DNA of 64,000 nucleotides from NCBI RefSeq assembly GCF_026870175.2, contig NZ_CP113977.2, positions 3,348,001-3,412,000 of the forward strand, in the 5' to 3' direction. Position 1 is the first letter of the stretch. Every line of letters starts with the position of its first letter. The position numbers were made by a program, and so were the translations under genes. The notes under the pieces are model-generated. The model was given only the letters and a program-made list of their open reading frames with translations, was not told where the DNA came from and made no database searches. This DNA is from Flavobacterium aestivum (GTDB lineage: Bacteria; Bacteroidota; Bacteroidia; Flavobacteriales; Flavobacteriaceae). Shown piece after piece: positions 56,954 through 60,577 of the stretch.

Positions 56954-58072
56954 ATGAAATTTATAGTATCGAGTTCGTACTTATTAAAACAATTACAAGT
57001 TTTAGGTAGTGTTATCAACAATAACAATACTTTGCCAATTTTGGATAACTTCTTATTTGAATTAAATAATAGCGAATTAACTGTTTCGGCATCCGATTTG
57101 GAGACTACAATGTCTGCTACATTGTCTATCGACTCAACCAGTAAAGGAAGTGTTGCAGTACCTGCAAAATTATTGTTGGAAATCCTTAAAACCTTTCCAG
57201 AACAACCCTTAACATTCACAGTTGAAGAAAACAGTACTATAGAAATTAGTTCTAACTCAGGAAAATATGCGTTAGCGTATGCTCCAGGAGAAGAATTCCC
57301 GAAATCTGTAAGCTTAGAAGAACCATCAGTAACATTGGTACCGGCAGATGTTTTGGCAACTGCTGTTAGCAAGACTATCTTCGCAGCTGGAAACGACGAT
57401 TTACGTCCGGTTATGTCTGGGGTTTTCTTCCAATTTTCTCCGGAAGGTTTAATTTTTGTAGCTACAGATGCTCACAAATTAGTAAAATATGCTCGCTCTG
57501 ATGTAAAAGCATCACAAGTAGCTGAGTTTATTATGCCAAAGAAACCTTTGAACATTTTAAAAAGTATCCTAAGCACCTCAGATGCTGAAGTAAAAATAGA
57601 ATACAACGATTCGAATGCTACTTTCTCTTTTGACAACTATATTTTATTATGTCGTCTAATTGATGGAAAATATCCGAATTACGAAGCGGTTATCCCTAAA
57701 GAAAATCCAAACAAATTGATGATGGATCGTTCTCAATTCTTGAGTTCAGTACGTCGTGTTGCTATTTTCTCTAACAAAACAACACACCAAATTCGTTTGA
57801 AAGTTGCTGGAGCCGAATTGAACATTTCTGCAGAAGACATCGACTACTCAAACAAAGCAGAAGAAAGATTGACTTGTGATTACCAAGGAGATGATATGCA
57901 AATTGGTTTCAATTCACGCTTCTTAACAGAAATGTTGAACAACCTTCAATCTGATATGATAATGCTCGAAATGTCATTACCAAACAGAGCCGGAATCCTA
58001 ACTCCTGTAGACGGACTAGAAGATGGCGAAACCGTAACAATGCTTGTAATGCCAGTAATGCTAAATAGCTAG
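56954..58072 (+). CDS. dnaN: DNA polymerase III beta subunit (sliding clamp)
   Basis: A 372-residue clamp. It has three repeated domains and the conserved start MKFIVSSSYLLKQLQVLGSVI. Functions as the processivity ring of DNA polymerase III. It sits away from dnaA and gyrB. It is followed by a terminator and then the GIY-YIG element. Confidence 0.97.
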   Translation: MKFIVSSSYLLKQLQVLGSVINNNNTLPILDNFLFELNNSELTVSASDLETTMSATLSIDSTSKGSVAVPAKLLLEILKTFPEQPLTFTVEENSTIEISSNSGKYALAYAPGEEFPKSVSLEEPSVTLVPADVLATAVSKTIFAAGNDDLRPVMSGVFFQFSPEGLIFVATDAHKLVKYARSDVKASQVAEFIMPKKPLNILKSILSTSDAEVKIEYNDSNATFSFDNYILLCRLIDGKYPNYEAVIPKENPNKLMMDRSQFLSSVRRVAIFSNKTTHQIRLKVAGAELNISAEDIDYSNKAEERLTCDYQGDDMQIGFNSRFLTEMLNNLQSDMIMLEMSLPNRAGILTPVDGLEDGETVTMLVMPVMLNS

Positions 58073-58201: not shown

Positions 58202-58301
58202 GTCATTGCGAGGTACGAAGCAATCTCATACCGTATATTGATTTCTATTGATTCACTTTGTTTGCTCAGGTTAGTGAGGTTGCTTCGTTCCTCGCAATGA
58301 C
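58202..58301. repeat. Left palindromic repeat of the GIY-YIG element
   Basis: A 100 bp palindrome. Outer arms GTCATTGCGAGG/CCTCGCAATGAC and inner ACGAAGCAA/TTGCTTCGT pair over 22 positions with one mismatch. It is an inverted copy of the right repeat, about 80-85% alike by eye. Confidence 0.92.
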
Positions 58302-58330
58302 TTTGAGTATATGACTTTACTTAATTAAAA

Positions 58331-58636
58331 TCACTCGGTCATTATGTTTTTAATTTCATCAAATAAATCTTTCCAAGTTGGATTCATTGAACGAATTAAA
58401 TCATTTTTAGCTTGTCTTGAGCCTGCCTTAATTTGTTTCTCTCGAGTTATTGCATCTTCAATCCACTGAAACTGTTCGTAATAAACCAATACATTCACAT
58501 CATAACGTGCTGAAAACGAATTTGGATTTCTTTTTTCTTTGTGTTCTAAAACCCTTTGAGGAAGATTTGAAGTAACCCCAGTATAAACCACAGTTTGGTA
58601 TTTATTCGTAATTATGTAGACAAATCCTGGTTTCAT
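58331..58636 (-). CDS. GIY-YIG nuclease family protein
   Basis: A 101-residue single-domain nuclease of the URI/COG2827 type. Signature: GFVYIITNKYQTVVYTGVTSNLPQRVLEHK (the GIY-YIG-like VYI and YTG, with the Arg of PQR), and a metal-binding Glu in the helix WIEDAITREKQIKAG. No DNA-binding fusion is present. It is bracketed by inverted palindromic repeats, so it may act on them. Confidence 0.93.
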   Translation of the reverse strand: MKPGFVYIITNKYQTVVYTGVTSNLPQRVLEHKEKRNPNSFSARYDVNVLVYYEQFQWIEDAITREKQIKAGSRQAKNDLIRSMNPTWKDLFDEIKNIMTE

Positions 58637-58681
58637 ACTTATAATTTGTTAATGAGGTTATTTTTTTCTTTAGTGTTTTGT

Positions 58682-58777
58682 GTCCTTGCGAAGAACGAAG
58701 CAATCACACTAGCCAGAGCAAACAAAGTGATTCAATAGTGATATACGTTATGAGATTGCTTCGTCCCTCGCAATGAC
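58682..58777. repeat. Right palindromic repeat of the GIY-YIG element
   Basis: A 96 bp palindrome with arms GTCCTTGCGAAGAACGAAGCAATC and the near-complement ending TCGCAATGAC. It shares the core AGCAAACAAAGTGA and TATGAGATTGCTTCGT with the left copy read on the other strand. Confidence 0.9.
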
Positions 58778-58804: not shown

Positions 58805-60577
58805 CTAAATAACTCCCATTTTTTTCATTAGGAAAGTGGCGCTTTTGTTTTTACAAATGCCATCTCGAAGGGTGTAATCAAAATGCAATTCATTGTTACT
58901 AATTTCAACTTCAAAACATTTGTTGGTTAGAATATTAGGATACTCATTAGTCGTTAGACAAACTTCTATGTCGTGTGTAGCTATGGCTCCAATGGCTTTT
59001 TTAGCAATTACTTTTTTCACCACTTCAATCGTTCCGTTTCGCTTATCATCAGAGTTGGTACCTCTCAAGATTTCATCTAAAAGGACAAAAGCAGAATTAG
59101 CTTCGAGCTCATCCATGATTTGTTTTAAACGTTTGATTTCGGCAAAGAAATAAGATTCACTATCTGATAACGAATCAGAAAGTCGCATAGATACTAAAAC
59201 TGGTAATGGGTGTACATTTGCCTGATTTGCACACACCACAGATCCCATTCCTGAAAGCACCATATTTATTCCTAAACTACGCAAGAAAGTACTCTTACCA
59301 GACATATTAGAACCCGTTAAAATCATAAATGATTGTGGCTGAAACTGCACCTCATTCCCTACTCTTGTGACTGGATTCAACAAAGGATGACTTAAATTAG
59401 AAAAATCAATCTCATAATTAGAATTCAAAGTTGGATACACAAAATCAGGGTTATTATACGAGAAGTTAGCCAAACTGTTGAGCATTTCAAATTCACCTAT
59501 TACCTCCAACCATTCTTCTAAAACAACGGCATGTTGCTTTTTCCAAACAATCAAGGATTTCAATACATGCAGATTAAAAAGAAATGTTCCGTTAAATAAT
59601 AAACCTGTTACAAAGTTCCCGATGCTATCCATTCTAGAAAACAACTCCGCCAACTGTTCAAGATGCACACTCGCTTTCTGATTTTTGAAACTCAACTTTT
59701 GCTGTAAAGCAACTAATTTTTCTGATTGGAAACTTTCATTTTCAATTTTCTGTACCAGTAGACCATATTGACTGATAATCAAATTGATGTTATCTGCCTG
59801 AACAATTTCTAATTTGATTCGCTTTAGGAAACTCCCCAAAATCATCAAATTACAAATAAACAAAAAAGACAAATAAGAAAGAAAAACTGTATTTGAGCTT
59901 ATTAAATATCCCAAAACACAACTTAAAAATAGCGATGGGAACAAATAGGAAATAAAGACTACCCCTTTTGACAAGGGCTTACTATTAAAGACGCTCCATT
60001 GCAGTAAAGTTTTATAAAGCGTTTCATTATCCTGACCTACTTTGGCAAAAGCCAAAAACTCCTGACGCCAATTTAATTTCTCTCTTAATTCCTGTACTGC
60101 TTCATGATTTTTTACTATTTCATCATTTGGCAAAAGCTTTAATAATTTTTCACTCAGGTTTTTTTTACCAATAAAAGTGGCTGTTCTATTTAAATTTTGA
60201 AATAAGGAGTGTTCCCCAAAAATATCTAAATCATAAGCATATGGATGATGGAAATCGTTGAATTCTGCACCATTTTCAAAAGGAATCGATTTTCGTTCCA
60301 AATACGCTATCTCATTTTCATTTATCTCGACAAGAGCATTTTTAATCTTTCTCTGAAACGATAATTTAGAATGGATTCTCATCAAAATAATAAAACTAGC
60401 AAACAGTAGAATTGCCACTATGACAAATACTGATTCGCTAGTTTTTAAGTAGTAAAATAAGCTTCCTAAAAAAAGTAAAATACTAATAAGTCTAAGAAAA
60501 CTTATACTATTGTATTTCGTATTGATTGATTTTAATTCTTCCGAATAGTTTTTGCTATTGCTTTTATATACTTCCAT
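58805..60577 (-). CDS. Membrane-anchored MutS-like ATPase
   Basis: A 590-residue protein. It has two N-terminal membrane helices (about residues 27-45 and 49-67), a second pair (about 206-228 and 230-250) and a C-terminal MutS ATPase domain. Walker A is TGSNMSGKST at 421-430 and Walker B is LLDEILRGTNSDD at 499-511. The mismatch-recognition domain of MutS is absent. The topology argues against classical mismatch repair; the function is unknown. Confidence 0.9.
   Translation of the reverse strand: MEVYKSNSKNYSEELKSINTKYNSISFLRLISILLFLGSLFYYLKTSESVFVIVAILLFASFIILMRIHSKLSFQRKIKNALVEINENEIAYLERKSIPFENGAEFNDFHHPYAYDLDIFGEHSLFQNLNRTATFIGKKNLSEKLLKLLPNDEIVKNHEAVQELREKLNWRQEFLAFAKVGQDNETLYKTLLQWSVFNSKPLSKGVVFISYLFPSLFLSCVLGYLISSNTVFLSYLSFLFICNLMILGSFLKRIKLEIVQADNINLIISQYGLLVQKIENESFQSEKLVALQQKLSFKNQKASVHLEQLAELFSRMDSIGNFVTGLLFNGTFLFNLHVLKSLIVWKKQHAVVLEEWLEVIGEFEMLNSLANFSYNNPDFVYPTLNSNYEIDFSNLSHPLLNPVTRVGNEVQFQPQSFMILTGSNMSGKSTFLRSLGINMVLSGMGSVVCANQANVHPLPVLVSMRLSDSLSDSESYFFAEIKRLKQIMDELEANSAFVLLDEILRGTNSDDKRNGTIEVVKKVIAKKAIGAIATHDIEVCLTTNEYPNILTNKCFEVEISNNELHFDYTLRDGICKNKSATFLMKKMGVI

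Follow-up and report, generated by a model that had tools for sequence, protein, structure and literature searches.

A GIY-YIG nuclease gene bracketed by GTC-tagged REP hairpins in Flavobacterium aestivum, and the recurrence of this pairing among bacteria

Most repetitive extragenic palindromes (REPs) split into two superfamilies, GTAG and CGTC, of which the GTAG REPs accompany REP-associated tyrosine transposases (RAYTs) (PMC3733652). As described in that paper (Di Nocera et al., 2013), the CGTC REPs have a C/TGTC tag, stems of 8-9 bp that start with AT, a loop of 4-5 nt and mostly CCA tails, and are found mainly as head-to-head dimers. The superfamily, reported from five phyla, has four published families and includes dRS3 of Neisseria and RPE-4 and RPE-6 of Rickettsia. 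Its members seem to be without a dedicated transposase; their REPtrons were perhaps lost early, or other transposases may serve them (PMC3733652). Here we describe a small unit of Flavobacterium aestivum (assembly GCF_026870175.2) in which a gene for a GIY-YIG nuclease lies between GTC-tagged REP hairpins. It is located in a stretch of 64,000 nucleotides (contig NZ_CP113977.2, positions 3,348,001 to 3,412,000 of the forward strand), hereafter the window. The pairing of GIY-YIG genes with such REPs is well supported by our analyses, as are its specificity and its breadth, and we consider it probable that the unit is a minimal selfish element, whose nuclease would be the cognate enzyme of the bracketing REPs, cutting the hairpins and moving the unit.

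The initial annotation of the window had described two palindromes on either side of a GIY-YIG gene, and all three were recovered at the coordinates listed in Table 1. The palindromes, about 100 bp each, are also mutual inverted copies, as had been claimed, nearly end to end (57 nt at 88% and 37 nt at 95% complementarity), and both fold better than shuffled sequences (z -7.1, with 0 of 200 shuffles as good, and z -3.7, with 1 of 200). The repeating unit is a 24-nt hairpin, two of which stand face to face in each palindrome, and its plan is GTC-ATTGC-GAGG(N)ACGAA-GCAAT-C, that is, a GTC tag, a 5-bp stem beginning with AT and a loop. The outer hairpins read GTC-AT..AT-C, so the first stem pairs are A-T and T-A. 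With up to three mismatches allowed, the arm CATTGCGAGGNACGAAGCAATC has four matches in the window and none in 100 shuffles. At the left palindrome Rfam gave sub-gathering matches to microRNA precursor families only, which we read as the signal of a generic hairpin. The repeat is dispersed in the host genome (4.58 Mb, one contig), where 23 arm matches were found at the same threshold and none with the reversed control. These matches fall at 14 places, at nine of which both arms face each other (≤3 mismatches), and the single pair of places less than 1 kb apart is the one that brackets the GIY-YIG gene. When the 14 copies are aligned, the arms are conserved and the centre is variable, and several second arms are degenerate.

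Compared with the published repeats, the window REP stands outside the four CGTC families (PMC3733652). We did not file it in any of them because its perfect stem has 5 bp (ATTGC/GCAAT) and its tails, readable in the outer arms, are CTC or CAC rather than CCA. The base preceding GTC is C or T in two of the four window hairpins and at five of the 14 host places (left arms). The window REP is a shorter-stemmed, GTC-tagged relative of the CGTC REPs, with the same kind of partner gene as the longer-stemmed repeats described below. The statement in the initial annotation that similar repeats are widespread in several phyla has its counterpart in print, in the CGTC-tagged REPs (PMC3733652).

By domain, fold and conserved residues, the protein encoded between the palindromes belongs to the GIY-YIG superfamily. 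It matches PF01541 (E 3.9e-15), with GIY-YIG as its sole domain and no extra DNA-binding domain found, and its fold is predicted with a pLDDT (predicted local distance difference test) of 91.9. Residues Y7, I8, Y18, G20, R28, H32, E66 and N85 are invariant in an alignment of 38 proteins; the catalytic role that we take the conserved residues to have is an assignment carried over from I-TevI. Three PF01541 matches are present in the host genome, and only that of the window is short and stand-alone (an open frame of 105 aa, the others having 618 and 454 aa). Searches with PADLOC and PHROGs gave no convincing match. In comparison with homing endonucleases of the I-TevI type and single-domain UPF0213 proteins, the nuclease has no extra DNA-binding domain that we could find and is flanked by REPs, not borne by an intron; unlike Slx1, to which it is 16-18% identical, it is not a eukaryotic, Slx4-dependent enzyme.

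Within the genus, arms are present in 101 of 150 Flavobacterium genomes and a nuclease homologue (E 1e-3) in 118 of 150. At the 30 best homologue loci, read by eye with up to five mismatches and flanks to 1.5 kb, the same arm was found on both sides at 22, on one side at five and on neither at three, among them the broken copy L055. Each of the 30 genomes with a close homologue contains one arm or more (median 23), and 25 of them contain at least five, whereas the median is one arm in genomes without a close homologue; related genomes are not independent in this comparison, from which two genomes that carry fragments of the gene, with 24 and 20 arms, were set aside. That 34 of the 118 genomes without a close homologue nevertheless have five or more arms tells against any strict dependence of the repeats on the nuclease. 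Three such genomes, G014, G099 and G103, carry 48, 44 and 58 arms, which may be orphan repeats or may be served by another enzyme. The more distant GIY-YIG genes of the genus, intended as a negative control, turned out to be flanked too, by other hairpins of the plan GTCAT-stem-loop-stem'-ATC. By a detector in which GTCAT, ATC and a stem of 3 pairing nt are the only fixed parts, 24 of 27 close loci and 30 of 36 distant ones had REPs within 450 bp (on both sides at 15 and 23, respectively; 3 of 30 close and 4 of 40 distant loci fetched had been left out as cut, fragmentary or over-long). The two sets yielded 52 and 98 REPs, against 0.4 and 0.5 in shuffled flanks, and between 1050 and 1500 bp from these 27 close loci the detector found none.

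The pairing extends well outside the genus. From a protein-alignment scan of named genomes we took the best 80 of 578 confirmed stretches, picked by protein alone, and found a REP within 400 bp at 58 of the 80, on both sides at 31. Plasmid collections gave 33 matching records, of which 14 were fetched; 10 of these have a REP and seven have REPs on both sides, the loci with REPs including one of Azospirillum lipoferum and one of Neisseria gonorrhoeae. When all sets were pooled at 450 bp (164 loci entered, four without a usable frame dropped), a REP was present at 125 of 160 GIY-YIG loci and on both sides at 84, made up of 57 and 41 of 66 loci in Flavobacterium, 58 and 36 of the best 80 in named genomes, and 10 and seven of 14 on plasmids. 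Phylum names are available for 73 of the best 80 named-genome loci, and REPs occur in 11 of their 13 phyla, on both sides in eight; many records are metagenome-assembled genomes (MAGs), so that individual phylum names may be in error, and there are near-duplicates among the loci. One candidate for transfer between phyla, L180 in a 'Limnohabitans' MAG (JASGCW010000005.1; protein 74% identical, same REP), was rejected because its contig, with about 35% GC and genes that look flavobacterial (Bacteroidota), is probably misbinned. Other loci are of interest for their surroundings: L233, on plasmid AZO_p3 of A. lipoferum 4B, lies in a suf gene cluster, its GIY-YIG gene and the REPs to either side of it being placed between sufB and sufC; L241, on plasmid p1 of Planktothrix agardhii, places the unit between an MmeI-type restriction gene and the DISARM gene drmA; and the N. 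gonorrhoeae locus L235 comes from a record filed as a plasmid (NZ_CP119140.1) that, judging by its 2.17 Mb, is probably the chromosome.

Control genes were rarely accompanied by REPs. In the same genus, a REP was found at three of 30 loci of ParE toxins, at one of 27 loci of Y1 transposases (the RAYT domain; wider flank of 600 bp; 3 of 30 loci omitted as cut by contig ends) and at one of 23 dnaN loci, counted in their two 450-bp end stretches. A stricter detector, which demands [CT]GTC and a perfect 6-bp stem, reported 168 hairpins (8.6 in shuffled flanks) at 65 of the 160 GIY-YIG loci, on both sides at 40, compared with 5 of 99 far flanks and 2 of 27 ParE loci. These counts bear on the simplest alternative, that the gene is a passenger which merely accumulates in tolerant, REP-rich intergenic DNA. 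REPs do cluster between genes, and dRS3-like repeats abound around the Neisseria locus; yet neither the ParE nor the Y1 transposase genes were flanked on both sides at any locus, and around the best 80 of the 578 stretches the number of REPs drops from 141 in the near flanks to 6 in those at 800-1200 bp (some of them cut by contig ends), with 0.8 in shuffled near flanks. Since, moreover, the type of repeat matches the lineage of the nuclease, as described next, this alternative is already disfavoured and we consider it very improbable. The proposal of the initial annotation, that a GIY-YIG enzyme is here the nuclease of a REP system, is in line with this non-random placement of the repeats. 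The GTCAT detector misses loci with other first stem pairs, such as L239 and L244. A well-supported nuclease clade (L079, L095, L135, L157, L167 and L177) has no strict GTCAT REPs, and several of its loci carry tagless hairpins such as ATTCCTGCG..CGCAGGAAT.

Nuclease lineages tend to own a particular stem sequence, and where the two halves of a stem vary they still pair. On a nuclease tree of 158 proteins and 98 columns (73 of 154 inner branches left open), the stem type of the 124 labelled loci changes 35 times, compared with 77 times on average and never fewer than 68 in 300 shuffles. The signal is present in Flavobacterium alone (57 loci, 14 changes, shuffled minimum 26) and in the remaining 67 loci (23 changes, shuffled minimum 32). 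The left and right stems are identical at 69 of the 84 two-sided loci (shuffled maximum 26). When the pairing requirement of the detector was dropped, 105 of 167 distinct anchored windows paired fully (mean 17, maximum 30 in 500 shuffles); counted by distinct stem combinations, full pairing was seen in 12 of 65. In the clade closest to the window's nuclease, ATTGC/GCAAT is replaced by ATAGC/GCTAT at L048 and by ATGGC/GCCAT at L053, both sides of the stem being altered together. Among the 352 strict REPs near GIY-YIG loci, the base preceding GTCAT, to which the detector is blind, is C or T in 317, a CCA tail follows in 130, and the perfect stem is 5 bp long in 187 and 8-9 bp in 148. These REPs resemble the CGTC REPs in their C/TGTC tag, in the AT that starts the stem and in their head-to-head dimers, and many loci have repeats such as GTC-ATTCCCGC-GAAA-GCGGGAAT-C, with the 8-bp stem and 4-nt loop of CGTC family 1; they differ from the CGTC REPs as published (PMC3733652) in that a GIY-YIG gene is tied to them.

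At its smallest the unit consists of REP-nuclease-REP and measures about 350-420 bp. Exactly one strict REP per side, with the tags outward, was found at 30 of the 84 two-sided loci, 24 of which span 347-419 bp; the window's locus and L032 are counted among the 30 in spite of extra or differently placed arms, because their imperfect inner arms escape the strict detector. The terminal inverted repeats of the initial annotation stand only in part: REPs do bound the unit, but each edge may be one REP or a REP dimer, in an order that differs between loci, and inverted orientation is no general rule, as at many loci of close relatives the two sides match each other best as direct copies. The outermost tags face outward (left + in 86 of 105, right - in 81 of 104), which we do not take as separate evidence because it follows in part from the head-to-head dimers. 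L152 and L158, which come from a single MAG, are 81% alike over 363 bp, from within a few bases of one REP's tag to the tag of the other; beyond these points their sequences are unrelated (the contig ends within one flank of L152). The homology between L043 and L046 stops 1-7 bases from the REPs. In Flavivirga sp. 57AJ16 (L130, positions 127-1556) three REP-nuclease-REP units stand in tandem about 505 bp apart, and two of the three genes have an in-frame stop.

The locus is not fixed at one position in relatives, which agrees with the initial annotation. In a DNA comparison of 1.5-kb flanks, those of the window's nuclease locus have no counterpart among the other 29 homologue loci. Among 23 dnaN loci of other species, three have an arm-like match (≤4 mismatches; one degenerate), the close nuclease copies of these species lying elsewhere. 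Three candidate empty sites in the sister species G056 were rejected: the dnaN site is not clean, with degraded palindrome ends and no recognisable nuclease gene between them in the alignment; at the counterpart of the gene-less palindrome at 3717787 the palindrome is absent and other, unmatched sequence stands in its place; and for the palindrome at 2558792 the best flank matches lie on different contigs. Several sites hold the gene in Flavobacterium, one of them (site I) common to 11 loci, one of which was assigned by one flank only, and others to two or three. Target duplications were not recognisable at site I or at L152/L158, although the L152 contig stops within one flank. The sharing of site I by 11 loci would suit a domesticated nuclease, kept by the host to cut or resolve REP hairpins and moving nothing today, as would the strong purifying selection on the gene and its one stand-alone copy in the host genome. 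Against it stand the several different sites that the gene occupies in one genus, the broken copies, the several homologues in many genomes and the L130 array with its stops, as expected of a selfish unit. We regard domestication as improbable.

The main rival is a homing gene, in which the nuclease would cut a gene-less REP dimer and the gene would be copied in by repair, splitting the dimer, while the REPs spread by means of another enzyme. A split dimer would show the REP-gene-REP arrangement that the strict detector finds at 30 of 84 loci, the recognition site itself being presumed, and GIY-YIG domains are known from homing enzymes, to which the sole NCBIfam match of the nuclease, below the cut-off, also points. 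Site I, an intergenic position, also speaks for homing in that some species have the nuclease there, and of 20 species without the gene at this site six, including F. aestivum itself, carry arms of the same type; three have a REP of another type, which homing does not favour, and 11 have none by the detectors, although one of these has a degenerate REP by eye and the right neighbour of one could not be located. Nor does homing explain how the repeats spread, and a match between repeat type and the nuclease tree does not follow from it alone. We think homing unlikely, though less so than the other two alternatives. Stems of the types TTGC, TTTC and TTCC are found at site I in different species (L286, L287 and nuclease-bearing loci), which may reflect a hot spot or conversion between repeat families.

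Table 1. Features of the unit and its neighbours, in positions of the window
Feature	Position	Strand	Remark
Left palindrome (REPIN-like, head-to-head REP dimer)	58202..58301	.	Inverted copy of 58682-58777
REP hairpin GTC-ATTGC-loop-GCAAT-C, outer left	58202..58225	+	Arm-motif match
REP hairpin, inner arm of left palindrome	58278..58301	-	1 mismatch to arm pattern
Single-domain GIY-YIG nuclease, 101 aa	58331..58636	-	PF01541 match
Right palindrome (REPIN-like, head-to-head REP dimer)	58682..58777	.	Folding, comparison with left
REP hairpin, inner arm of right palindrome	58682..58705	+	2 mismatches to arm pattern; starts GTCC
REP hairpin, outer right	58754..58777	-	Arm-motif match
dnaN (DNA polymerase III beta), left neighbour	56954..58072	+	Host gene, outside unit
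MutS-family ATPase gene, right neighbour	58805..60577	-	Host gene, outside unit

For the selfish element that we prefer, the substrate would be a hairpin extruded where the DNA is single-stranded or forms a cruciform. The nuclease would recognise its tag and stem and nick beside it, and repair or replication would then copy the DNA enclosed by two REPs, whatever it is, into another site. The autonomous form would be REP-nuclease-REP, and the scattered REP dimers of about 100 bp would be the form without the gene. We propose that the unit does with an unrelated enzyme what the 'REPtron' does in RAYT/REP systems. The two systems (for the RAYTs in part PMC3733652 and PMC8266576) have in common a small enzyme gene flanked by tagged hairpins, dispersed gene-less dimers and repeats matched to the lineage of the enzyme; they differ in the enzyme and the tag, GIY-YIG with GTC here and HUH/Y1 with GTAG REPs in the RAYTs. 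Among the open-access PubMed Central matches listed, preprints not included, we recognised from titles and abstract starts no paper that joins GIY-YIG nucleases to REPs. Because the pairing recurs in many bacteria, the nuclease is a strong candidate for the missing partner of a widespread family of repeats. The broader reading, a class of minimal mobile elements of about 350-420 bp in which a single-domain GIY-YIG enzyme replaces the transposase and mobilises GTC-tagged REPs (including dRS3 and its relatives) across at least 11 phyla, could in our judgement equally well hold or fail. If it is true, a specific, lineage-matched partner enzyme would answer the absence of a dedicated transposase noted for the CGTC REPs (PMC3733652), the dRS3 and RPE repeats would gain a testable origin, and the REP way of life would have evolved with two unrelated nuclease folds.
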